Virus record (IMG/VR): IMGVR_UViG_3300025118_000183
Location: 1 to 21,490 of that record
DNA from: a virus
Length of the DNA stretch: 21,490 nucleotides
Strand: one strand, 5' to 3'
Below, piece after piece: positions 1,057 to 18,606 of this stretch (positions are counted from its first letter, which is position 1; every line of letters starts with the position of its first letter). A model generated the notes under the pieces. It was not told the DNA's origin. It saw nothing but the letters and a program-made list of their open reading frames with translations, and made no database searches. The position numbers and the translations under genes are program-made.

Positions 1057-1060
1057 TCGT

Positions 1061-1103
1061 GGTCTATGCAGGAATTGAACCTGCACATGTCGCCAGATAG
1101 ACC
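1061..1103 (-). ncRNA. Minimal tRNA-like element: acceptor stem plus T-arm only
   Basis: Read on the minus strand from 1103: GGTCTAT, a 12-base linker, a T-arm of GCAGG / TTCAATT / CCTGC, then ATAGACC and a discriminator-like A at 1060. The 7-bp acceptor stem and 5-bp T-stem pair perfectly, and the T-stem runs straight into the acceptor 3' strand, as in a real tRNA. The loop TTCAATT fits the canonical T-loop TTCRANY. No D-arm or anticodon arm exists; only CTGGCGACATGT joins the two helices. CCA is not encoded (ACGA follows). Such an acceptor/T-arm minihelix is the known minimal substrate type for RNase P, so a role as an mRNA processing or stability element is likely. A tRNA-derived attachment site is a weaker alternative. 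Confidence 0.7.
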
Positions 1104-1123
1104 ACCACGCATCAATGCGTGGT
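1104..1123 (-). repeat. ACGCA-loop-TGCGT hairpin, copy 1
   Basis: Arms ACCACGCAT and ATGCGTGGT around a CA centre on the plus strand; the minus-strand loop is TTGA if read as a tetraloop. It overlaps the last base of the stop codon of the 109-codon gene and abuts the tRNA-like acceptor stem with no gap, so the two helices could stack in the leftward mRNA. Confidence 0.9.
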
Positions 1124-1452
1124 TAAAGTAAATCACTGGGGTTTTTATCAATACGCCTACGCTCATTGATATCAATAACCTCAGCTACATGGGTAGCAAT
1201 ACCTTGGTCAGCTTCGCCATCCTCAACCCGCTGTTTCAATTGTTCAAACGCTTCAGGATTAACTTCCTTCAGTGTCTCCAATTGATCAGCTAAAGACGGA
1301 TCTAAAGTATCCAGCACTTGGTCTATTACTTGATCCATCGCTGTTGATGCTTCTTCCATCCATATCTTAATTGCCATCAGACAATCAAGAGCTTGGTTGA
1401 GTTCGGAAAACCCGACAGTGTATGTCTTTGGTGGTTCTTGGTGGTCACTCAT
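1123..1452 (-). CDS. Small acidic helical protein, unknown function
   Basis: A 109-residue protein I do not recognise. It is rich in Glu, Asp, Gln and Leu and predicted by eye to be mostly helical (for example the stretch around LADQLETLKEV and FEQLKQRVEDG), with a charged tail RRRIDKNPSDLL. No cysteine cluster, signal peptide or membrane segment is visible. Its ATG overlaps the stop of the preceding gene as ATGA (1452-1449), a sign of coupled translation, with a weak AGG about eight bases upstream. Its TAA stop falls at the edge of the first hairpin copy. A role in an early phage process is inferred only from position. Confidence 0.7.
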   Translation of the reverse strand: MSDHQEPPKTYTVGFSELNQALDCLMAIKIWMEEASTAMDQVIDQVLDTLDPSLADQLETLKEVNPEAFEQLKQRVEDGEADQGIATHVAEVIDINERRRIDKNPSDLL

Positions 1453-1688
1453 CTGTATGCCTGCATGATAAAGATGCCTTTGTCATTGTCAATACTAGTG
1501 CGTAGCTTCAGCCCTTTCCTAGCAGCATGTTGCACCATCGCACCACGAGCATTCTTAGCATCCTTGTAACGTGACAGGTCTGTCGCTATCTCTAGCTCCC
1601 ATACCTGACCATTAAACCATGAGGGATCACCACCGAAGCGACGACCCCGACCATATTGTTTGGGAAATTCTTTCAAAATTCTAGCCAT
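1449..1688 (-). CDS. Small basic protein with W-x-G-x-VWEL motif, of an actinophage-like type
   Basis: The real start is taken as the ATG at 1688 (MARILKEFPKQYGRG), preceded by GAGG, giving 79 residues. The frame is open further upstream, but that part lies on top of the well-supported 155-codon gene. The order GRGRRFGG, SWFNGQVWELEIATD, AARKGLKLRTS, FIMQA resembles small proteins I recall from actinobacterial phages with a WLDGRVWxLxxGxDF motif followed by a helix and KVRTS. Their function is not known to me; the basic character suggests nucleic-acid contact, which is inference. The start overlaps the previous gene by eight bases and the stop overlaps the next start as ATGA. Confidence 0.7.
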   Translation of the reverse strand: MARILKEFPKQYGRGRRFGGDPSWFNGQVWELEIATDLSRYKDAKNARGAMVQHAARKGLKLRTSIDNDKGIFIMQAYR

Positions 1689-2148
1689 TGTCAGAATCCT
1701 CAAATAAGTCAGGGTTAGCTTCTCTGATAGCTTTACTACGTTCTTCACGCTTACGCTTTTCCTCTGCGTCATACTCTTCCTGACTGACAAAATGAAAGTC
1801 ATCCGAGTTTGCCCATTTCTCAATGGTGCGAACGATAGCTTGCGCTTGAAACCCACGCCCACCATACGAACCGTAGTCTCGCCAAGTTAAACCAATCTGT
1901 CCAGCTAACCATTCAACGAACACAAGGTTATAGATACCTTTAAGTTCCTCTACTGGTTCACCATTCACAAAGAGCGTACTCTTGTGATCTGACAAGTCTG
2001 ATTTAAACGTATGTACCAGATGTTCAACATCAAAGTGCTTACCATAAAAATCAGGGTTCATGATGCTGTGTCCGTCACCGAGAATTATCTCATCGGCGAC
2101 TGCTTCACGCACCAACTCTTTGGTTATTTCTTTATATTTAATTGTCAT
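1681..2148 (-). CDS. Hypothetical 155-residue phage protein
   Basis: The chosen start is the ATG at 2148 (MTIKYKEITKEL), preceded by GGGAGA at 2158-2153 with good spacing. A longer frame starting at 2181 would begin inside the hairpin repeat and is rejected. The product is mixed alpha/beta by eye, with a conserved-looking aromatic patch FVEWLAGQIGLTWRDYGSYGG and a strongly charged C-terminal helix EEYDAEEKRKREERSKA. I do not recognise the family. It is the first gene after the leftward promoter at 2225-2234 and heads the unit that runs through the two small genes to the DUF932 gene. The hairpin at 2159-2180 touches its ribosome binding site, so translation may depend on that structure. Confidence 0.75.
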   Translation of the reverse strand: MTIKYKEITKELVREAVADEIILGDGHSIMNPDFYGKHFDVEHLVHTFKSDLSDHKSTLFVNGEPVEELKGIYNLVFVEWLAGQIGLTWRDYGSYGGRGFQAQAIVRTIEKWANSDDFHFVSQEEYDAEEKRKREERSKAIREANPDLFEDSDNG

Positions 2149-2158
2149 ACTTTCTCCC

Positions 2159-2180
2159 TGCCACGCATCAATGCGTGGCA
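2159..2180 (-). repeat. ACGCA-loop-TGCGT hairpin, copy 2, abutting a ribosome binding site
   Basis: Arms of 10 bases (TGCCACGCAT and ATGCGTGGCA) around CA on the plus strand; minus-strand loop TTGA. On the mRNA the 3' arm ends one base before GGGAGA of the 155-codon gene. This position suits translational control or 5'-end protection. Confidence 0.9.
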
Positions 2181-2224
2181 TAGTTGGTTATATATGTTTA
2201 GTGAGATATCACTCACTCATATAC

Positions 2225-2234
2225 CCATTATATC
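2225..2234 (-). promoter_or_regulatory. Leftward promoter -10 element, GATATAATGG copy 1
   Basis: On the minus strand this reads GATATAATGG, with a perfect TATAAT at 2232-2227. No good -35 hexamer lies 16-18 bases upstream. The same ten bases recur exactly at 5162-5171 and 6465-6474, each ahead of a leftward gene, which supports a real promoter. A small inverted repeat (AGTGA / TCACT, about 2201-2214) lies just downstream. Confidence 0.65.
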
Positions 2235-2289
2235 TGTGACCATAGGATCTTTTCTACTTCAAATATGGTTACGCATAATGAGCATATGA

Positions 2290-2333
2290 GAGAGGCGGTG
2301 AGGGGAAAAGCAATAAACCCCCACCGCCATCTC
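2290..2333 (-). terminator. GC-rich stem-loop at the end of a leftward unit
   Basis: GGCGGTG at 2294-2300 pairs with CACCGCC at 2322-2328, extended inward by GGG/CCC and outward by GAGA/TCTC with one bulged base. The A2301-C2321 mismatch on the plus strand becomes a G-U pair on the minus-strand RNA, so the helix is better formed in the leftward transcript. It lies 15 bases after the stop of the preceding gene, but no T tract follows, so it may be a factor-dependent terminator or a 3'-end protector. Confidence 0.55.
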
Positions 2334-2347
2334 AGAAGCTGGTAACT

Positions 2348-2650
2348 CTACGAGAGAGTAGCTTCAGCATCATCGTCATCAAATATAGCGTCATCCATAT
2401 AAACTTCAGGACCATAAGTCCTATTCACTGGAATGTCCTTCCCCTTGACGATAAAGGGTCGGCGCTGTCTTGCCATCATGTCACATAGTAAATACTGGTG
2501 AGCGTCATCGTAGCTTTTGAAAGGTCCGATGATATCTCTACGGTAAGTACCTTGTCTTGGATAGTTCTTCCAATCCTTAGGCTTAAACCAATCATGGATT
2601 ACGAACCATTCATCTGAATCAGTCGTTGTTGTTTCTCTTGAATCAGTCAT
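2348..2650 (-). CDS. Small acidic protein, unknown function
   Basis: The start is taken as the ATG at 2650 (MTDSRETTTTDSDEW), which overlaps the preceding stop as ATGA; an ATG six codons earlier is possible. The product has 100 residues. A folded core is suggested by EWFVIHDWFKPKDW, IIGPFKSYDDAHQYLLCDMMARQRRPFIV and VYMDDAIFDDDDAE, which looks like a small alpha/beta domain with an acidic tail. I do not recognise a family. It is the last gene of the gp88-like unit and is followed by a strong stem-loop. Confidence 0.65.
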   Translation of the reverse strand: MTDSRETTTTDSDEWFVIHDWFKPKDWKNYPRQGTYRRDIIGPFKSYDDAHQYLLCDMMARQRRPFIVKGKDIPVNRTYGPEVYMDDAIFDDDDAEATLS

Positions 2651-2946
2651 CCAATCGCTACTGCCCATTGGATTCTCTCAGCTTGACGCTGATTAAAATC
2701 AACCATAGCTTCTTCCTTACCAATAATGTAGTGACCACTTGAAGCTGTCTCTAAATAGATAGGACTGTATTGCTCTAGCGGATCTATATTCCCAGCAACA
2801 TGCCATGTGACATATTCCTCAGGATCTATATTTCCCCAATGGCAAAGCACAGTCCCAACAATTGGGTAGCCTTTACTAGTGTCTTGGAATAGCGCAACTT
2901 TTACGATGTGCCTTCCATTCTTCATTTTTATCAAATTATTTAACAT
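2647..2946 (-). CDS. Small hypothetical protein
   Basis: The start is placed at the ATG at 2946 (MLNNLIKMKNGRHIV) because AAAGGA lies four bases upstream; the longer frame would begin with GTG inside a hairpin. The product is 99 residues, beta-rich by eye (HIVKVALFQDTSKGYPIVGTVL; YSPIYLETASSGHYIIG) with a helical end DFNQRQAERIQWAVAIG. I do not recognise the family. It overlaps the following gene by four bases (ATGA) and lies downstream of a nested stem-loop pair in the same mRNA as the gp88-like gene. Confidence 0.7.
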   Translation of the reverse strand: MLNNLIKMKNGRHIVKVALFQDTSKGYPIVGTVLCHWGNIDPEEYVTWHVAGNIDPLEQYSPIYLETASSGHYIIGKEEAMVDFNQRQAERIQWAVAIG

Positions 2947-2978
2947 ATTATCCTTTGATAATCTCTGCAAGAAATCTT

Positions 2979-3026
2979 CTTGCATGTAAACCCCCACGCA
3001 TCACTGCGTGGAGACTTACATGCAAG
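2979..3026 (-). repeat. Nested hairpin containing ACGCA-loop-TGCGT copy 3
   Basis: The outer arms CTTGCATGTAA (2979-2989) and TTACATGCAAG (3016-3026) are perfect 11-bp complements. Inside, after a 4-by-4 internal loop, lies CCACGCA/TGCGTGG (2994-3011). The minus-strand tetraloop is GTGA, a GNRA loop; on the plus strand it is TCAC, which is not. The structure lies between the gp88-like stop and the ribosome binding site of the next gene. Confidence 0.88.
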
Positions 3027-3043
3027 CCCTACCGAAGCAGGGC
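3026..3043 (-). other. UUCG-capped stem-loop after the gp88-like gene
   Basis: On the minus strand: GCCCTGC, loop TTCG, GTAGGGC, i.e. a 7-bp stem with one G-U pair closed by C(UUCG)G, an exceptionally stable tetraloop. On the plus strand the same position is an A-C mismatch with loop CGAA, so the structure belongs to the leftward mRNA. It lies seven bases after the gp88-like stop codon and has no T tract. Confidence 0.7.
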
Positions 3044-3050
3044 AAACATG

Positions 3051-4079
3051 TTATCCTTCCTCATACCAATTCGCTGACTGATCACAGTCAGGGCATGGAC
3101 CTAAGTCCACTAGCACAGTTGGCGCTTCCTCAACGATTGATTCCCACCTGCCAGTATCGCCACAGGTGTTGCAATCTTCAACTCCATATACTTCTGTCAT
3201 TGCTTCACCTCCGTATCTATTAGGATGAACAGCGAACTGAACATTGCCATTGCCATAAACGCAATACTGGCATTTAGCGCACGCACCTTGACCCAAACGT
3301 TTACCACGCTCAGTCTCAGCAGTACCCCATTCAACCAGATCAGTACGACCAGTTTGTTCAGGACATTTAAGCATAGGTCGCATTCCCAGACCCCTCGCAA
3401 GCTTTTCAGTATCTGCAAATGTGTCGCCACAAAACGCATAGTCCACGGTTCCTTCAAGACCAAGCAAATTCAACTCCACTAAACGATGTTTATTATATTC
3501 ATCAACAGACAAATACAAAGAAAAGTTGCCTCGTAGAATTACATCATTGCCTGATGCATCAATCGGGTTATCAAGATACTGACGGACATACCCAAAGCTC
3601 CGAGTATAAACCCAGAACTGTACACGAGGGAACGAAGCAGACAGACGCATCAATGCTTCAAGGAACTCATAACTAGGAATATCACCATCCCATAGATGGC
3701 GAAATATCCATTCTTCCTCAGGCACACCAAGGCGGACCATCTCATCCACGCACTCAGCAACCATCGGTTCCATCAAGCGTAGTAGCTCATCACTGTTATC
3801 TAAATGGGGTTTAAACGTCATCCAGTTATGCCAAACTTTATCCATGACGCTCGGAATGTCCTCAATTGAGGCTGCATAGCAATCATCACAAAACTTAGTC
3901 ATACCTTCCTGACAAGACACAACAGCAGGCAAACCGAATGTATTCCGAATGCCCCTACTGATCGCATTGTTCAGACGCTCACCCTTCTGCACTGCAAAAG
4001 GCGTGACCTTCCTGTCTAACGATAGGCGCACCCGACCTAATGTCGGCTTGTGCTTGAGTTTAACCATTGTTTCTAACAT
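3051..4079 (-). CDS. gp88-like phage protein with Cys clusters
   Basis: The start is the ATG at 4079 (MLETMVKLKHKPT), because AAGGAG lies seven bases upstream; ATGs further up lack this. The product is 342 residues. It matches the 'gene product 88' type of actinobacterial phages: FGLPAVVSCQEGMTKFCDDCYA near residue 50, then IFRHLWDGDIPSYEFLEAL and VQFWVYTRS, where the family has a RxHxxGDF and FYAYTKS pattern, then KCPEQTG and ACAKCQYC. Two extra Cys pairs (CNTCGDTG, CPDC) near the end look like a zinc ribbon. The family role is unknown; metal or Fe-S binding is likely from the cysteines. It heads the unit 4079 to 2348. Confidence 0.7.
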   Translation of the reverse strand: MLETMVKLKHKPTLGRVRLSLDRKVTPFAVQKGERLNNAISRGIRNTFGLPAVVSCQEGMTKFCDDCYAASIEDIPSVMDKVWHNWMTFKPHLDNSDELLRLMEPMVAECVDEMVRLGVPEEEWIFRHLWDGDIPSYEFLEALMRLSASFPRVQFWVYTRSFGYVRQYLDNPIDASGNDVILRGNFSLYLSVDEYNKHRLVELNLLGLEGTVDYAFCGDTFADTEKLARGLGMRPMLKCPEQTGRTDLVEWGTAETERGKRLGQGACAKCQYCVYGNGNVQFAVHPNRYGGEAMTEVYGVEDCNTCGDTGRWESIVEEAPTVLVDLGPCPDCDQSANWYEEG

Positions 4080-4119
4080 AGCTTTCTCCTTATTATTTAA
4101 TTGTACGGTAACCATATGA

Positions 4120-4167
4120 TCACCCATATAACCAGACATGCAACCATCTAGTCATATGGCTAACCAT
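4120..4167 (-). CDS. Possible 15-residue leader peptide (MVSHMTRW...)
   Basis: ATG at 4167, stop TGA ending at 4120; reads MVSHMTRWLHVWLYG. It follows the shared CGCCACTATCGGCGG element by about 22 bases. A second short frame of similar opening (MVKHLVRG...) follows the other copy of that element. The ribosome binding site is weak here. It may be a chance frame; listed because of the parallel arrangement. Confidence 0.22.
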   Translation of the reverse strand: MVSHMTRWLHVWLYG

Positions 4168-4189
4168 AAACACACCCACGCATCCAGCT

Positions 4190-4204
4190 CGCCACTATCG
4201 GCGG
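4190..4204 (-). repeat. CGCCACTATCGGCGG element, copy 1
   Basis: A 15-base exact match to 5282-5296. It forms a small stem CGCC/GGCG around ACTATC. Both copies lie in gaps upstream of leftward genes and are followed on the minus strand by GTTTATGGT. It could be an operator or leader element. Confidence 0.6.
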
Positions 4205-4274
4205 AGCCTTTCGGCGCAGCCCAACTGCGCCAAAAAAAGAGAACAAAAAAAAGACACAAAAAAAAGAGTCAAAG

Positions 4275-4306
4275 AAAAGCCCCACGCATCGCTGCGTGGG
4301 GCTTTT
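4275..4306 (-). terminator. Leftward terminator built on ACGCA-loop-TGCGT copy 4
   Basis: Arms of 14 bases (AAAAGCCCCACGCA 4275-4288, TGCGTGGGGCTTTT 4293-4306). The minus-strand loop is GCGA, a GNRA tetraloop. It starts 11 bases after the stop of the 60-codon gene, and its 3' arm runs into TTTTCTTT, followed further on by T8 tracts, so it looks like a Rho-independent terminator for the 5121-4317 unit. Confidence 0.85.
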
Positions 4307-4316
4307 CCTGACTACC

Positions 4317-4499
4317 CTAAATACCTAACAACTTCTCAAACTTCCGCCAAGCTGCAAGGACAATAGGTCGCAGATCCTCAACCCATAACGGCTGCACACA
4401 AGATTGCCAAAGAACCTTCGCTTGCCAGAAGACTATTGGAAATACAATCAGATACACAGATATCCAGATGAGATCTGTCCAATGAAATGGTTCTAACAT
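4317..4499 (-). CDS. Small single-pass membrane protein
   Basis: 60 residues: MLEPFHWTD, then a hydrophobic, Trp-rich segment (about residues 10-31, LIWISVYLIVFPIVFWQAKVLW), then a C-terminal helix ending WRKFEKLLGI. One membrane span is likely. Its ATG overlaps the previous stop by seven bases (ATGTTAG), so translation is coupled to that gene. A small membrane protein among early genes could modify the host envelope or act in lysis or superinfection exclusion; none of these can be chosen from sequence. It is the last gene before the terminator at 4275-4306. Confidence 0.6.
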   Translation of the reverse strand: MLEPFHWTDLIWISVYLIVFPIVFWQAKVLWQSCVQPLWVEDLRPIVLAAWRKFEKLLGI

Positions 4500-4864
4500 T
4501 CGCTGGTAACTATCTTAGTTAAGTCTGAAATAACCTCAGACAAACCATCACATTCAAGCACATAAGGACCATTGTCCCTAGGCGTAGTTAACCAAAGCTG
4601 GTTTTGTTCCACATCTAAACTCAGCAAGATACTCTCAAGCCACATAATATTACGAGACCGATTATCAACAGGATCTAAAACTAGCTCCTTATGAATACGA
4701 TCACGCAACATCAACTGACTCACATCTATCGCCAACATGCCGACTCGTGAACGGCTGTTAGAGATACTGAATGTAGCATGAACAGTCTTACCCAAAACAT
4801 TAGGCAGACGAACCATACCCTCATACCAAACTTGTCTGGTATAAGTAATATTGCTTTTACTCAT
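4493..4864 (-). CDS. Hypothetical 123-residue protein
   Basis: The ATG at 4864 is preceded by AAGGGAG with good spacing. The N-terminal half looks beta-rich (ITYTRQVWYEGMVRLPNVLGKTVHATFSI; RVGMLAIDVSQLML), followed by IMWLESILLSLDVEQNQLWLTTP and a helical end. I do not recognise the family; no cysteine cluster or signal peptide is visible. It lies between the 36-residue Cys-containing gene and the small membrane protein gene. Its leader is highly structured: a hairpin repeat copy at 4885-4906 and two overlapping stems at 4907-4970, and a CTCC just before the GGGAG could pair with it. Confidence 0.7.
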   Translation of the reverse strand: MSKSNITYTRQVWYEGMVRLPNVLGKTVHATFSISNSRSRVGMLAIDVSQLMLRDRIHKELVLDPVDNRSRNIMWLESILLSLDVEQNQLWLTTPRDNGPYVLECDGLSEVISDLTKIVTSEC

Positions 4865-4884
4865 GTATTACTCCCTTAAAAGGA

Positions 4885-4906
4885 GACTACGCATCAATGC
4901 GTAGTC
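4885..4906 (-). repeat. ACGCA-loop-TGCGT hairpin, copy 5, with a compensated base change
   Basis: Arms GACTACGCAT and ATGCGTAGTC around CA (plus strand); minus-strand loop TTGA. Compared with other copies the outer C-G pair is T-A on both sides (CTACGCA/TGCGTAG), a compensatory change that preserves pairing. It sits just upstream of the ribosome binding site of the 123-codon gene. Confidence 0.9.
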
Positions 4907-4970
4907 AGGGCTATTTGCCCTACGGAACAGCCAACCACGAACCAAACAACGTGACTAGCTGCTCCGTAGG
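4907..4970 (-). other. Two overlapping, mutually exclusive stem-loops in a leader
   Basis: Stem one: CCTACGGA-x-CAGC (4919-4931) with GCTG-x-TCCGTAGG (4958-4970); the A-C mismatch on the plus strand is G-U on the minus-strand RNA, giving 13 pairs. Stem two: AGGGC (4907-4911) with GCCCT (4917-4921). They share bases 4919-4921, so only one can form fully at a time. They lie between the 36-residue gene and the 123-residue gene. Confidence 0.55.
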
Positions 4971-4976
4971 ACATTC

Positions 4977-4996
4977 CCCACGCATCGCTGCGTGGG
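4977..4996 (-). repeat. ACGCA-loop-TGCGT hairpin, copy 6
   Basis: CCCACGCA (4977-4984) and TGCGTGGG (4989-4996); the minus-strand loop is GCGA (GNRA). It starts 14 bases after the stop of the 36-residue gene and has no T tract on the minus strand, so it is more likely an mRNA structure than a terminator. Confidence 0.88.
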
Positions 4997-5010
4997 AACA
5001 TCCCACAAAC

Positions 5011-5121
5011 TTACTTCTTCTTCAGGTACTCCTTAATATCTGACCTGTCAGGGTTCTCCTTCAGGTGCTTCCGCAGTACCTTCCTGCAACCATCAGTGCA
5101 ATTGCAATTCTTGTAACTCAT
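5011..5121 (-). CDS. 36-residue Cys-containing basic protein
   Basis: ATG at 5121, TAA at 5013-5011, with AAAGGA upstream at good spacing. It reads MSYKNCNCTDGCRKVLRKH followed by LKENPDRSDIKEYLKKK. Three cysteines in CxCx3C at residues 6-12, followed by a strongly basic helical tail, suggest a tiny metal-binding or nucleic-acid-binding protein. No family is recognised. It is the first gene after the GATATAATGG promoter at 5162-5171 and heads the unit that ends at the 4275-4306 terminator. Confidence 0.65.
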   Translation of the reverse strand: MSYKNCNCTDGCRKVLRKHLKENPDRSDIKEYLKKK

Positions 5122-5161
5122 GCTTTTCCTTTCCAGTGAATGGAACTCCCACTCACAACTA

Positions 5162-5171
5162 CCATTATATC
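5162..5171 (-). promoter_or_regulatory. Leftward promoter -10 element, GATATAATGG copy 2
   Basis: The minus strand reads GATATAATGG with TATAAT at 5169-5164, about 40 bases ahead of the 36-residue gene start. No recognisable -35 hexamer is present at normal spacing, as with the other two copies. Confidence 0.65.
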
Positions 5172-5190
5172 GGGGCAACCCTGTTCTTCG

Positions 5191-11054: not shown

Positions 11055-11725
11055 TGGCAGTTGAAGTTTGGAAAGAACCAGAATCACGATCCGCTTATGT
11101 AATGGGTGTTGATACTGCTGAAGGTTTAAAACATGGAGACTACTCATGTATACAAGTATTAAATGTTGGAACAGGAGAACAAGTTGCTATTTGGCATGGA
11201 CACATTGCACCTGATTTACTTGCTGAGGAAGTACATGCTTTGGGGTTGTGGTATCGTGATGCTCTTTGTTGCGTTGAGTCTAACAATCATGGTCTTACGA
11301 CAATTACGGAATTAAGGCATTTAGGGTATCCTAATCTATTTAGGCGAAGGCAATTAAATAATATTAGTAACAGAATAAGCCAAGAATATGGTTGGAAAAC
11401 AACTAGGACATCTAAACCTTTGATGATTGATGATCTTGGTTCTGCTCTTAGAAATTGGGAATTATCCATTTACGACAAGCATACTGTTGCCGAGCTTAGA
11501 ACCTTTACTAGGAACGATAGAGGTTCTATGTCTGGTTCTCCGTATGATGACCGTGTTATGGCCCTTGCTTTAGCTAACCAAATGAGGAAATACGCTTATG
11601 AACCTGAATATGCGCCGAAAGTGGATGATTACTGGACTGTTGATTGGTTTGCTCGCCTTGGGAATGATGCTCCTTCGGAAATTCCGCTTCAAATAGGCTT
11701 ACATAATCTTCGTGGGACACTCTAG
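11054..11725 (+). CDS. terL: Terminase large subunit, nuclease part
   Basis: 223 residues carrying the RNase H-like nuclease of large terminases: D20 in VMGVDTAEG, E75 in CCVESNNHG and D165/D166 in GSPYDDRVMALALAN supply the metal-binding acidic residues. The ATG overlaps the ATPase stop as TAATG, so re-initiation could yield two chains that assemble. In this frame a TAG lies at 11045-11047, only two codons before the ATG, so the ancestral fused gene must have lost or gained a base near 11046-11053. A single-base sequencing error there would give the same picture. Confidence 0.83.
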   Translation: MAVEVWKEPESRSAYVMGVDTAEGLKHGDYSCIQVLNVGTGEQVAIWHGHIAPDLLAEEVHALGLWYRDALCCVESNNHGLTTITELRHLGYPNLFRRRQLNNISNRISQEYGWKTTRTSKPLMIDDLGSALRNWELSIYDKHTVAELRTFTRNDRGSMSGSPYDDRVMALALANQMRKYAYEPEYAPKVDDYWTVDWFARLGNDAPSEIPLQIGLHNLRGTL

Positions 11726-11764
11726 TTTACTTATAGAGCATATGTATACATGGAAGGTGCTTTA

Positions 11765-12051: not shown

Positions 12052-12309
12052 ATGGCTATCTTGCCTGATGGGGCAAGCTACCAAGAATTTGCGGATTACG
12101 TTACTAATCTGCGTGGCGCTGTTCCCGAAGATGAGTTAAAAGAGCTATATCAACGACATCTCAAGTTAAAAGGTCTAACTTTTGATTTGAAACGTGGTTG
12201 GAAAGCTATTGCTTTAGCTGATGATGAAATGGATTTAACGAACAATCAACGTGAGCAGAAAGTAGTAGCTGAAGCTAAAGCTCAAGGTAGGAATATCGCA
12301 AAGGTCTGA
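12052..12309 (+). CDS. Small hypothetical protein before the portal gene
   Basis: 85 residues, starting two bases after the previous stop and ending one base before the portal GTG. It is helical and charged (EFADYVTNLRGAVPEDELKELYQRHLKLKG; EMDLTNNQREQKVVAEAKAQG). No family is recognised and the ribosome binding site is poor, suggesting coupled translation. Position alone suggests a head or packaging accessory role. Confidence 0.62.
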   Translation: MAILPDGASYQEFADYVTNLRGAVPEDELKELYQRHLKLKGLTFDLKRGWKAIALADDEMDLTNNQREQKVVAEAKAQGRNIAKV

Positions 12310-14283: not shown

Positions 14284-15024
14284 GTGCCTGAAGAAACAGA
14301 AGTCATAGAACCCACGATTACAGTGGATAACCTTGAAACTTCAACCGAAGTACCACAGGAACCTGAATATACTATCAAAGTAGATGGTGAGGAACAGCAG
14401 GTCAGTCTGGAAGAACTTCAAAACGGTTATCAACGACAAGCGGATTACACTCGTAAGACGCAGGAGATAGCTGCTGAACGTGAGCGTTTGCATCAAGCTG
14501 AGTCTATTGTGTCAGCGTTGGAATATGATCCAGCGGGGACACTTCAAACTTTAGCTAGTTCTTTTAATGTAAATATGGGTGGTAACCAACCTGTGAATCA
14601 ACCTGCGAATGAAGAATATATTTCTTCTTCTTGGGAAGAACCCGATAAGACATCTCTAAAGATAGCTGAGTTGGAAGGTAAAGTAGCAAGGCAAGAGCAG
14701 ATACATCGTGTTCAGCAAGTAGAGCGTGAAGTTAATGCTTTGCAAGAGAAATATGGAGAGTTCAATAGGCGAGACCTACTGAATCATGCAGTCAAAAATG
14801 GCATACCCAACTTAGAAGCTGCGTATGCTCATTGGCAATTTGGAGATGTTAAGTCTATTGCGGATAAACTTTCGCAAGAGCAAGAAATCACATCAAAGAA
14901 ACGTGATGCAGCGGTTGTTAGTGCTGGAGGGTCAACCCAATCGGGAACCGAATCTGAACCTACTCCTAATATTTCCAGTCTTAGAGAAGCTTTCGCTTTA
15001 GCAAAACAACAGTTAAACAATTAA
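14284..15024 (+). CDS. Head scaffolding protein
   Basis: 246 residues from GTG behind AAAGGAGGG. The acidic N-terminus leads into YTIKVDGEEQQVSLEELQNGYQRQADYTRKTQEIAAERERL, a pattern typical of phage scaffolds, then long coiled-coil helices (KIAELEGKVARQEQIHRVQQVEREVNALQEKYG) and a C-terminal helix SLREAFALAKQQLN likely to contact the coat protein. It is placed directly before the major capsid gene as expected. Scaffolds direct procapsid assembly and leave before DNA fills the head. A CTCC just upstream could pair with the GGAG of its ribosome binding site. Confidence 0.82.
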   Translation: MPEETEVIEPTITVDNLETSTEVPQEPEYTIKVDGEEQQVSLEELQNGYQRQADYTRKTQEIAAERERLHQAESIVSALEYDPAGTLQTLASSFNVNMGGNQPVNQPANEEYISSSWEEPDKTSLKIAELEGKVARQEQIHRVQQVEREVNALQEKYGEFNRRDLLNHAVKNGIPNLEAAYAHWQFGDVKSIADKLSQEQEITSKKRDAAVVSAGGSTQSGTESEPTPNISSLREAFALAKQQLNN

Positions 15025-15043: not shown

Positions 15044-16003
15044 ATGGCTGCTGGAAACAGTAACTTTGACGAGATTCTTACTACTACCTTAAAAAACTAT
15101 GTACCAAAATTAACTGACAACATTTTTAGCGCTAGGCCTCTGTTCTACGCTCTAACAAATGGTCAGACAATTCGGCGCATAGGTGGTGGTTCTAAGGTTG
15201 TCGTTCCAATAATTTATGGAACAAACTCTACCGCTGGTTCTTACTCTGGAACAGATACTATTGACACGACTGCTCAGACAGGCATTTCGGCTGCTGAGTA
15301 CGACTGGAAACAGTACGCTGCCACAGTAACAATCTCTGGTATTGAAGAAGCCAAAAACAATGGTGAGGCACAAATCATTGACCTTCTCGAAGGCAAGATT
15401 TTCCAAACCCAAGAAACAATAATTGAAAACATGAATTCTATGTTTTATTCAAACGGTGCTGGAAACGGTGGAAAGGACTGGCTAGGACTTAACGCTCTAG
15501 TTGGAACTGGAAACGATTCAGGTAGCGCTATTGGTGGCATTGATGCTACTGATTCAGATAACTCATGGTGGAGATCAACCCTGACAAATCAGGGTGACGC
15601 TCTAACTGTTGCTGCTATGGCAACCATGTACAATACTGTTTCTGTGGGTAACGATCAGCCAACGATCATCATTACTGACCAAGACGAATACGAAAAGTAT
15701 GAGTCTCTTCTCACTGGAAACATTCGGTACACAGATACTGATATGGCTGACAGTGGGTTTCAGAACCTTCTATTCAAGGGTGCGCCTGTAACGTTTGATT
15801 CAAATTCTGAATTAGATGGGAAGATGTTCTTTTTGAACACGAAGTATCTACAACTCGTTGCACATAGCGATGTTTGGTTTAAACCAACACCGTTTGTACG
15901 ACCAACTAACAAAGACTCTGTGTTCTCACAGATTCTTTGTTACGGTAACTTAACAACAAGCAACCGTTCCCGACAGGGCATGCTTTACGGTCTAACCGAC
16001 TAA
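15044..16003 (+). CDS. Major capsid protein (HK97 fold)
   Basis: 319 residues, ATG behind AAGGAGA. The N-terminal NSNFDEILTTTLKNYVPKLTDNIFSARPLFYALTNG, then GGSKVVVPIIYGTN, EYDWKQYAATVTISGIEEAKNNGEAQIIDLLEGKI and the late HSDVWFKPTPFVRP with a short C-terminal strand are typical of coat proteins of this podovirus/siphovirus type. Codon choice leans to C-ending codons compared with neighbouring genes, as expected for the most strongly expressed virion gene. Scaffold precedes it and the head-tail adaptor follows. Confidence 0.88.
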   Translation: MAAGNSNFDEILTTTLKNYVPKLTDNIFSARPLFYALTNGQTIRRIGGGSKVVVPIIYGTNSTAGSYSGTDTIDTTAQTGISAAEYDWKQYAATVTISGIEEAKNNGEAQIIDLLEGKIFQTQETIIENMNSMFYSNGAGNGGKDWLGLNALVGTGNDSGSAIGGIDATDSDNSWWRSTLTNQGDALTVAAMATMYNTVSVGNDQPTIIITDQDEYEKYESLLTGNIRYTDTDMADSGFQNLLFKGAPVTFDSNSELDGKMFFLNTKYLQLVAHSDVWFKPTPFVRPTNKDSVFSQILCYGNLTTSNRSRQGMLYGLTD

Positions 16004-16264: not shown

Positions 16265-16978
16265 ATGGAAATACAGGATATGCGAACCTACATTCGTGGG
16301 TTGCTAGATATTGATTCTAATGATATTTCTAACGACATCCTAAATCGCTTTATAGGCGAGGGATACGACCAAGTGGTGTATTCCGAAAAGCGTTGGCCTT
16401 TCTATGAGGTAGAAGATACGTTCCCTACGGTAGGGAATACGTCTGATTATGATTTGAAGTCTTCTTCAACAACGCTTGTAACTAATACTAATGGATTACG
16501 TGACGTAGCTGCTTTACGCACAGATGATCATATTGTCAACTATATAGGCCGTGATGACGGTGATTTAGTTTATCCGCTTAATACAAGTAGTAGCGGAGAT
16601 GTTTGGTATTGGTCTGATTGGGCTGAAAAAGTACGGTTATATCCTTCGCCGTCTTCTGCCCAAACAATTCATGTAAGGGGATATAAAAAGCCAGCAGCAT
16701 TTGGTGCAGGTAGTGTTGATGCCACAGAGCCTTCTGATTTCCCTGAGCCTTTCCATATTCTATTCGCTACATATGGGGCTGCTCGTGCTTACGAGCAACA
16801 AGAAGACCCTGAGATGGCTGGACAGTATTATGGTGTGTTCGCTAGGGAGTTAGATAACCTTCGTGCAAGATATATTGACGTTCCTACACCTCAACCTCTT
16901 ATCATGAATAGTAGTAGAGCTTCTAGGTGGCGTTCACAGTCGTATATGGGTGACCGTTTGCGCTATAGCTGGGAGTAG
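16265..16978 (+). CDS. Head-tail adaptor protein (gp4-like)
   Basis: 237 residues. The N-terminal MRTYIRGLLDIDSNDISNDILNRFIGEGYDQVVYSEKRWPFYE is the characteristic opening of phage adaptor proteins that bind below the portal, followed by a beta segment (VRLYPSPSSAQTIHVRGYKKPA) and the helix FHILFATYGAARAYEQQEDPEMAGQYYGVFARELDNLRARY. It lies after the capsid gene and directly before the gp10-like tail gene, as in P22-like and related podoviruses. The start follows the previous stop by two bases. Confidence 0.78.
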   Translation: MEIQDMRTYIRGLLDIDSNDISNDILNRFIGEGYDQVVYSEKRWPFYEVEDTFPTVGNTSDYDLKSSSTTLVTNTNGLRDVAALRTDDHIVNYIGRDDGDLVYPLNTSSSGDVWYWSDWAEKVRLYPSPSSAQTIHVRGYKKPAAFGAGSVDATEPSDFPEPFHILFATYGAARAYEQQEDPEMAGQYYGVFARELDNLRARYIDVPTPQPLIMNSSRASRWRSQSYMGDRLRYSWE

Positions 16979-16980
16979 CT

Positions 16981-18606
16981 ATGGCAAAAAAGGCGTATCA
17001 AACTCAAGTTCTTGAGAGTTTCCAAGGGGGATTAAATTTTCGTACTGATCAATTCAATGTTTCTCCTAATGAATCCCCTGATTTATTGAATGTTGATGTA
17101 GATCCTCGTGGCGGGGTTAAGCTCCGTAATGGTGTCGCTGCATTAAATAGTACGCAAGCTAGCGCTCATCAGATTAATGGACTTGGATCTTTTTTTACTG
17201 ATTCAGGCACAGCGCATATTATTGCGAATACAGCAGATACTAGTAATAATATAAAGTACAGTTCAGGTGGTAATTTTTCTACTTTGAGTGGTCCTACGGC
17301 TAGGACATCTACTTCTCGCATGTATGGCATGACTATGAATAACGTATTCTATGGCGTGTCAGGTGATCTTGTTTCGTTTAAGTGGGATGGTTCTAGTGGT
17401 GCTGATTTAGGCACAGATATTGACGGAACTGCTGGTAATTTCCCTATAGCCCAGTATGTTACTTTTTGGAATAACCTTGCTTGGGTGGGCAAAACTCGTG
17501 AACCTTCAACTTATCACAATTCAAGGCTTCGTTGGTCTAATATTAATGATCCTGAGAAATGGTCAGCTACAGATTATGTAGATATTGACGTAGGTGAACG
17601 TGGAGATGTTATTACTGGTTTGGTTCCTTTAGCTGATCGTTTACTTATCTTTAAAAACAATAGTGTTCATGCTATGTATGGGTTTGGATCTGATTCTTTT
17701 CAGGTTACAGCATTGACTCGTGATGTGGGATCTATAGCTTTATCATCTCCTGTTTCTACACCGTATGGTGTCTTCTTCTGGCATGATCGTGCAGGAGTGT
17801 ACCTGTACAATGGAGAACAATTCATTAACATATTTGAAAAATTAAGGCCTGCTATTGATAATGGGAGAATCAGCTTTACTACTGCACCTCAACTTGCATG
17901 GTACGAGAATCGTTTGTACGTGACAGTTGATATGTTGAAGTATTATGAGACTGGTTCAGTTACTGCTCGTCATACTTTTATATTTGATCCTTCTATTGAG
18001 GCTTGGACTTTAACCGATATAAATGCAACTACTTTACATGTGCATTCTCCTCCTGCTGGGCTGCCTACGCTTCTTGGCACATCTGTGTTTTCAACTTCTG
18101 CTGATAAGGGTCGTGCAATTAAATTAGAGGAATCCAGATCAACAGATAGCTACAATGGTAGTGCCTCAACCCGCATCAATGCGTATTTCACTACTCCTTG
18201 GATGTCTGGTAAAAATCCTGTAGTTAAAAAACGTTGGGGTAGGCCTCAAATAGTTTTGGATGCTTCTTCAACTTTAACTATGCCTATTGAAGTTTATTCA
18301 GATTATGATAAATCTTCAAGCGATAAGACTATCTATTTGAATTTAGCTGGTCGTGAGTCTAGTTCAACTTGGGAATCTTCAGGTTCTACTACGACTTGGG
18401 CTTCTGGTTCAGATGTAGATGGTGAACCTGTGGGTGGTACTGGTGTATGGGCTTCTGAAGCTGCTTCTACGATTACTGATATCGTGCGTTTGCAAAGTTT
18501 GGGAATGGCTAAAGCTATCGCTCTAAAAATAAATGGTCCTTCTCAATCAAGTAGTTGGGAAATTAATGGGCTTATGTTTACTTACAAGAATAGGAAGGTA
18601 CGTTAA
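16981..18606 (+). CDS. Tail hub/nozzle-type protein (P22 gp10-like)
   Basis: 541 residues beginning AKKAYQTQVLESFQGGLNFRTDQFNVSPNESPDLLNVDVDPRGGVKLRNG, the usual start of this large beta-propeller class (tail stabilisation / tail tubular B-like). Repeated beta blades follow: YGVSGDLVSFKWDG, WVGKTREPSTYHNSRLRWSNINDPEKWS, YGVFFWHDRAGVYLYNGEQ, HTFIFDPSIEAWTL. It probably forms the lower tail tube below the adaptor. Its gene starts two bases after the adaptor stop and its TAA overlaps the next ATG (TAATG). An inverted repeat matching the left-arm hairpin core lies inside it at 18172-18183. Confidence 0.72.
   Translation: MAKKAYQTQVLESFQGGLNFRTDQFNVSPNESPDLLNVDVDPRGGVKLRNGVAALNSTQASAHQINGLGSFFTDSGTAHIIANTADTSNNIKYSSGGNFSTLSGPTARTSTSRMYGMTMNNVFYGVSGDLVSFKWDGSSGADLGTDIDGTAGNFPIAQYVTFWNNLAWVGKTREPSTYHNSRLRWSNINDPEKWSATDYVDIDVGERGDVITGLVPLADRLLIFKNNSVHAMYGFGSDSFQVTALTRDVGSIALSSPVSTPYGVFFWHDRAGVYLYNGEQFINIFEKLRPAIDNGRISFTTAPQLAWYENRLYVTVDMLKYYETGSVTARHTFIFDPSIEAWTLTDINATTLHVHSPPAGLPTLLGTSVFSTSADKGRAIKLEESRSTDSYNGSASTRINAYFTTPWMSGKNPVVKKRWGRPQIVLDASSTLTMPIEVYSDYDKSSSDKTIYLNLAGRESSSTWESSGSTTTWASGSDVDGEPVGGTGVWASEAASTITDIVRLQSLGMAKAIALKINGPSQSSSWEINGLMFTYKNRKVR

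Follow-up and report, generated by a model that had tools for sequence, protein, structure and literature searches.

A candidate mimic of the tRNA top half in a phage DUF932 leader

Why should the acceptor stem and T-arm of a tRNA, joined to each other with nothing but a short linker between them, stand inside the message of a phage protein gene? The question is raised by a locus on the minus strand of a 21,490-base virus record, analysed here over its full length as the window; its source is a marine tailed phage, and virus records of this type may be fragments. To our knowledge natural acceptor/T-arm minihelices inside messages are rare, and in the open-licence part of PubMed Central we recognised no paper on such an element beside a DUF932 gene.

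The minihelix and its setting

The minihelix is held in the leader of a DUF932 gene (minus strand, 51 to 1016; 321 residues; Pfam PF06067, E 2.4e-12; phrog_1221), the ATG of which follows a Shine-Dalgarno-like AAGGAG read by eye (minus strand, 1022 to 1027). The upstream ORF (minus strand, 1123 to 1452) encodes 109 residues without known function, and no relatives of it were found in viral contigs. Hairpin repeat copy 1, ACCACGCATTGATGCGTGGT (that is, ACCACGCA-TTGA-TGCGTGGT; minus strand, 1104 to 1123), shares the final base of the upstream stop codon and adjoins the minihelix on its 5' side without a gap, which bears out the placement of the element by the earlier note between two leftward ORFs and against this hairpin. 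A second hairpin, TCTCAGG-ATAAG-CCTGAGA (minus strand, 1038 to 1056), is kept in the related loci G001, L120 and L121. Dispersed hairpin repeats with the core ACGCA-NNNN-TGCGT recur in several more copies through the leftward gene block (window 1104 to 6629), and their outer stems show both-sided changes.

The minihelix itself occupies positions 1103 to 1060 of the minus strand and comprises a 7-bp acceptor stem, a 12-nt linker, and a 5-bp T-stem closing a 7-nt loop. Read from the sequence, the 5' acceptor strand GGTCTAT (1097 to 1103, minus strand) is followed by the linker CTGGCGACATGT (1085 to 1096, minus strand), which replaces the D and anticodon arms, and by the T-arm (1068 to 1084, minus strand), in which GCAGG (1084 to 1080) pairs with CCTGC (1072 to 1068) around the loop TTCAATT (1079 to 1073). 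The 3' acceptor strand ATAGACC (1067 to 1061) and a discriminator A (1060) complete the element on the same strand, followed by CGA (1057 to 1059), not CCA; the resulting ACGA is also found in G001, L120, L121, L131/L142 and L126/L149. All 12 pairs are Watson-Crick, none is a G3-U70 pair, and the loop matches TTCRANY. Acceptor stem, T-stem and loop are thus of tRNA form, and in place of the D-arm and anticodon arm there is the 12-nt linker only; re-reading of the minus strand found the earlier coordinates, and the description as tRNA top-half geometry without D or anticodon arm, to be right.

Chance was assessed with 400 first-order Markov shuffles of the window, allowing linkers of 2 to 20 nt. 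The strict T-loop with 7 + 5 Watson-Crick pairs occurs once in the window and in none of the 400 shuffles, and admitting G-U pairs with the strict loop still gives 0 of 400; a much looser loop with G-U pairs is found in 14 of 400, and a still looser pattern with six of seven acceptor pairs in 118 of 400. Against the Rfam tRNA model (RF00005) the minihelix scores 21.0 bits, below the gathering score of 29; neither this model at its gathering threshold nor ARAGORN finds a tRNA gene in the window. Folding of the 47-nt element gives a z of -2.2, its lowest-energy fold having 5 outer and 7 inner pairs as against the 7 + 5 of the sequence reading; the whole intergenic region has a z of -3.9, a stability reached in none of 200 shuffles.

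Elements at the same position in related phages

The nearest relatives by DUF932 identity to the window are G001 and G002 (82%), L120 (60%) and L121 (59%). All four have, at the minihelix position, a continuous hairpin followed by ACGA and a second hairpin like that of the window, and none has the T-loop or linker there; in the folds of G001 and L120 the hairpin is 12 bp with a six-base loop, and the stems of G001, L120 and L121 show both-sided changes at two pairs. Loss of the 5' acceptor strand in relatives, which the earlier note had named as a refutation, is borne out in part: linker and T-loop are absent from the four nearest, while a continuous stem of the same length stays. Because these four have the hairpin without T-loop or linker, what the DUF932 clade of the window keeps is, as judged from the sequences, stem length and position, the T-arm form being so far confined to the window.

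These hairpins bring in a competing explanation, that an ordinary leader hairpin has its 12-bp stem maintained by selection for the sake of translation or RNA stability, the T-arm form being one variant with no role linked to tRNA. It is favoured by the continuous 12-bp stem and six-base loop at the same place in G001, L120 and L121, with both-sided changes at two pairs and the same ACGA and CTCAGG hairpin following. An ordinary hairpin, however, has no need of a TTCRANY loop, of a bulge exactly between 7 and 5 pairs, or of a discriminator A (a combination seen in 0 of 400 shuffles), and a second DUF932 clade carries cloverleaf-like and large-insert forms with T-loops. We consider this explanation rather unlikely.

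In that second clade (clade B) the DUF932 proteins are about 30% identical to that of the window, and an acceptor/T-arm element lies upstream of DUF932 in all ten testable phage contigs. The T-loop is TGCAANT, the linkers run from 18 to 294 nt, a D-arm-like AGCTAATAGAGC is kept, and the element either adjoins the last leader hairpin or is separated from it by one more structured stretch. The form varies: in G007 and L115 it is a 66-nt cloverleaf-like structure with a 7-bp acceptor, a short D-like arm, a second arm and a 4-bp T-stem with the loop TGCAAGT; L116 is similar with the second arm altered, and L131/L142 and G015 vary further. L126/L149 form three helices with different stem sequences and the loop TGCAACT (L126 also has a 7-bp acceptor partner 128 nt upstream, and the local 6-bp partner shared with L149 was used), and in L146 and L200 the distance from the 5' acceptor strand to the T-arm is 294 and 264 nt, with the loop TGCAAAT. 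The acceptor is followed in every case by AC and then by CA, TA, GA or GC, giving CCA only in G007 and L116; the window minihelix likewise has the acceptor/T-arm core followed by AC upstream of DUF932. Among the 20 loci of a clade-B DUF932 search the element is present in ten, two are cut inside the gene and eight (39-46% identity) are without it, and a wider set of 63 DUF932 loci, several of them incomplete, yields ten, on the same contigs. The search of 50,697 known phage records gave no match for the window region, the clade-B region or DUF932, and 16 for the portal protein.

The core pattern used to scan the loci was designed after elements had been seen. Four of its sequences (L163; L186 with overlapping loci; L187; L206/L207) were dropped as they have only six acceptor pairs, and as far as examined none has a DUF932-leader position; L187 may be a real tRNA. 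A minihelix in L007 was dropped as part of a long A/T hairpin array: the minus strand of this phage relative carries, over 1 to 700, many near-perfect hairpins built on ACTTAGTAC/GTACTAAGT. Two further structures were seen near the clade-B elements. One, with TCGGGAG / CTCCCGA closing it, separates the tRNA-like element from DUF932 (L106, about 14910-15005; L115, about 2190-2285; L116; L200, about 2230-2415) and had no Rfam match in L106 or L116 at gathering thresholds or in L115 by E-value search; the other is a conserved non-coding stretch before the tRNA-like element in L106 (about 14715-14835, closed by TATCGCT / AGCGATA), L126 and L149.

We built a covariance model (R1) from five clade-B elements, leaving out the window, L126, L146 and L200. 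In 73 records it found nine matches at E<=1e-3, never more than one to a record and all of them upstream of DUF932; among them are elements outside its training (L126 and L149, 27 bits; the record of L200, 19.7 bits). The element of G052, with an insert of 294 nt, escaped the model and was seen by the core-pattern scan, and the window is not among the matches listed for the 73 records. With filters off, the minihelix ranks first in the window and in exact register, with a weak score of 9.8 bits (E 0.58); by simple proportion the E value would be about 0.0014 if only the roughly 105-nt leader were searched on one strand, which is a post-hoc narrowing. Lesser matches in G034, G040, G061 and G066 (E 0.017 to 0.5) were not counted, those in G040 and G066 falling on mRNA-less tmRNAs. 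That R1 has a single strong match in each matching record, and every time at DUF932, speaks for a role linked with this gene.

Pairing was compared across 12 element sequences (the window, eight clade-B forms and three hairpins), with the identical L131/L142 and L126/L149 each counted once and G002 not taken apart from G001. Only two of 132 pair cells are unpaired and nine of 11 pairs show both-sided change, the pooling assuming that the elements of the two clades are comparable; within clade B alone both-sided changes occur at three pairs, all contributed by L126/L149. On a tree of 34 DUF932 proteins the clade-B members with the element form one group (support 92/89), and another (100/100) unites the window with G001 (as L118), L120 and L121. 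On this tree the T-arm character needs two changes, which is compatible both with a single ancestral element that was later lost in some lineages and with two independent origins. The minihelix is likely to be related to the larger clade-B elements and may share an ancestor with them. Of the related phages, those of clade B thus have an acceptor/T-arm at the same place, and the nearest relatives have no T-loop.

Likeness to tRNA genes

The T-arm and 3' acceptor could be an attachment site that duplicates the 3' half of a tRNA gene of the host, and the tRNA-like character of just these parts is what speaks for such an origin. An identical host tRNA 3' half matching 1061 to 1084 had been named beforehand as the finding that would overturn the minihelix reading, and it did not appear: this exact 24-base sequence is absent from viral_contigs and from genome_contigs, which cover one genome for each of 84,980 species and may not include the true host. 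The attachment-site reading is not supported, because no identical tRNA 3' half was found in those genomes. The 5' acceptor strand is moreover present too, and no integrase was found in ten leftward ORFs (PHROGs) or ten proteins (Pfam) of the window, itself a fragment. We regard this origin as very improbable.

A tRNA gene acquired by the phage and decayed to a remnant by loss of its D and anticodon arms would also leave such an element. A full-tRNA pattern with the GGTCTAT acceptor is found in 73 genome stretches, in which ARAGORN calls tRNA-Asp 73 times and tRNA-Val once; the tRNA-Asp genes with this acceptor are mostly from Bacteroidota, chiefly Chryseobacterium. In the closest of them 22 of the 24 T-arm and 3' acceptor bases agree with the minihelix, and the two that differ make one compensated pair. 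Consistent with decay are the existence of these cellular genes, the D-arm-like AGCTAATAGAGC of clade B, and the call of L116 as tRNA-Glu by ARAGORN. The likeness to tRNA-Asp is, however, partly built in, as the acceptor and most of the loop were set in the search pattern; the best match has G73 where the minihelix has A, all 12 pairs of the minihelix are intact, and the position beside DUF932 recurs. The matches being mostly from Bacteroidota also tells against decay. Bacteroidota make little use of AAGGAG-like sites, and since such a site is present here they are an unlikely host. No window-type minihelix with the same acceptor was found in viral_contigs, and no full tRNA gene in 27 loci from relatives; in 56 further loci ARAGORN reports one tRNA-Glu, seen in the overlapping L116/L156 of a single contig, and this is the clade-B element. 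Decay is in our judgement unlikely.

The tRNA machinery and the DUF932 gene

Another RNA with acceptor and T-arm and no anticodon arm is the tRNA-like domain of tmRNA, as in the mRNA-less tmRNA of mycobacteriophage DS6A (PMC4131195, PMC11915505). Molecules of this kind, with both tmRNA ends and no tag-coding part (83 or 106 nt), are encoded in seven DUF932 phage records, scoring over the cut-off in five of 54 records (G039, 16968-17050, plus; G040, 40606-40688, minus; G044, 5682-5764, minus, L137:38-120; G045, 28475-28557, minus; G047, 11650-11732, minus) and in two of 28 (G066, 12123-12205, minus; G069, 15266-15371, plus). They reach 61-81 bits with the Rfam tmRNA model, and a stem-loop replaces the tag part. 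The G3-U70 pair, which marks alanine tRNAs, is visible in all seven folded sequences, the sequence of G045 being identical to that of G047. Since both tmRNA ends are already contained in the 83-nt form, a 324-nt tmRNA call in L181 and L182 (among 14 further loci) was taken as spurious. A weaker tmRNA-like stretch (35.5 bits) lies in G080 (8617-8701, plus) just before a GGAGG...ATG start. Directly 3' of the mRNA-less tmRNA in L181/L182 (G047, G045), and also in L183 (G040), is a tRNA-like stretch in which GCACGGG / CCCGTGC surround the T-arm GCGGG-TTCGATT-CCCGC, and in which ARAGORN finds no tRNA.

These mRNA-less tmRNAs look like further members of the kind known from DS6A, since that phage carries such a form and a similar molecule, the tmRNA tRNA-like domain, inhibits tmRNA, perhaps by titrating SmpB (PMC4131195, PMC11915505). 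By analogy the window element might be excised and released as a decoy that titrates a host tRNA-handling protein, and that related DUF932 phages encode such molecules, with the inhibition and the DS6A form as precedent (PMC4131195), favours the idea. A decoy need not adjoin one particular gene, yet the element does, and unlike the tmRNA forms it has neither the TGGTTTCGA D-region nor G3-U70; no tmRNA match (RF00023) was found in the window record (G000). A released decoy seems to us decidedly improbable. The bacterial Y RNAs (YrlA), which have a tRNA-like module beside the rsr gene, resemble the window element as tRNA-like RNAs linked to one protein gene; a Y RNA/Ro60 pair was set aside, the TROVE (Ro60/Rsr) protein being absent from all 24 records searched.

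The reading we favour, with a confidence that stays tentative and somewhat short of even, is that the minihelix is a tRNA top-half mimic in the DUF932 leader, kept because a host factor that measures the acceptor/T-arm stack (11-12 bp) would act on it. That larger and simpler versions stand at the same place in related viruses suggests that the tRNA-handling machinery of the cell is used in controlling the DUF932 gene. Host RNase P, or RNase Z at the 3' side, would recognise the acceptor/T-arm and cut the polycistronic transcript; the cut would separate a hairpin-ended upstream message from a DUF932 message starting with a stable structure, and this separation would set DUF932 expression.

Of the host enzymes RNase P comes first, since a hairpin of acceptor and T-arm is enough for it to cut in vitro (PMC11143913) and since it has been described as a ruler that works on the stack of T-arm and acceptor (PMC4919913). 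The proposal that an acceptor/T-arm hairpin is a type of RNase P substrate accords with this, such hairpins being established model substrates (PMC11143913). The window element resembles two of these, AT1 and pMini3bpUG, in its stacked acceptor and T-stem, its T-loop and its lack of D and anticodon arms; those are synthetic and contact RNase P via their own 3' end (PMC11143913), whereas it occurs in nature, with a 12-nt linker, a paired 5' flank and ACGA at its end. Among the natural substrates that are not tRNAs are phage M3 RNA, the C4 RNA of P1/P7 and T4 gene 32 mRNA; like the window element these are phage RNA structures, and cutting by the tRNA enzyme is shown for them (PMC11143913) and is a prediction for the window element. 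The clade-B T-loops TGCAANT fit the T-loop-like triloop consensus UGNRA (PMC2258182).

The 7 + 5 pairs give, by sequence, a stacked acceptor and T-arm of tRNA length. A 3' RCC(A) beside the acceptor stem is helpful for RNase P and not strictly required; the window has A-CGA there, and an encoded CCA is absent from the window and most relatives. Hairpin copy 1 is fully paired and flush with the acceptor at 1104/1103, and there would therefore be no single-stranded 5' leader at the cut site. This paired flank speaks against RNase P, as do the lack of a CCA and the absence of the T-loop from the nearest relatives, and the linkage to one gene is also what would be expected of a gene-specific regulator. 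Cutting of the minihelix by RNase P is nonetheless plausible; like it, the CCA addition suggested in the earlier note is hypothetical. It is possible, and we hold this with a little more doubt than the mimic itself, that an RNA family tied to DUF932 is built on the tRNA top half, which serves as a frame around inserts of anywhere from 0 to about 300 nt. The window would then have the smallest T-arm form that occurs naturally, a minihelix of 43 nt through which a viral message would be processed or gated by the machinery that matures host tRNAs.

No informative fold match was obtained for the protein itself. Its AlphaFold model (pLDDT 80.7, pTM 0.67) has no Foldseek match in the PDB at E<=0.001; the best VIA-align 2 hit, a Mediator subunit at Z 8.5, is near the level of common arrangements and not informative, and the best profile match of the sequence to the PDB has an E of 0.13. 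The element offers a handle on DUF932, a family without known role. With cloverleaf-like, three-helix, large-insert, minihelix and 12-bp hairpin forms all occurring at a single locus, the length-measuring idea can be tested directly. Should tRNA enzymes turn out to cut or bind the minihelix, one gene of a polycistronic phage message would have a compact means of control, and nature would have supplied a test of the smallest part of a tRNA on which such enzymes can act.
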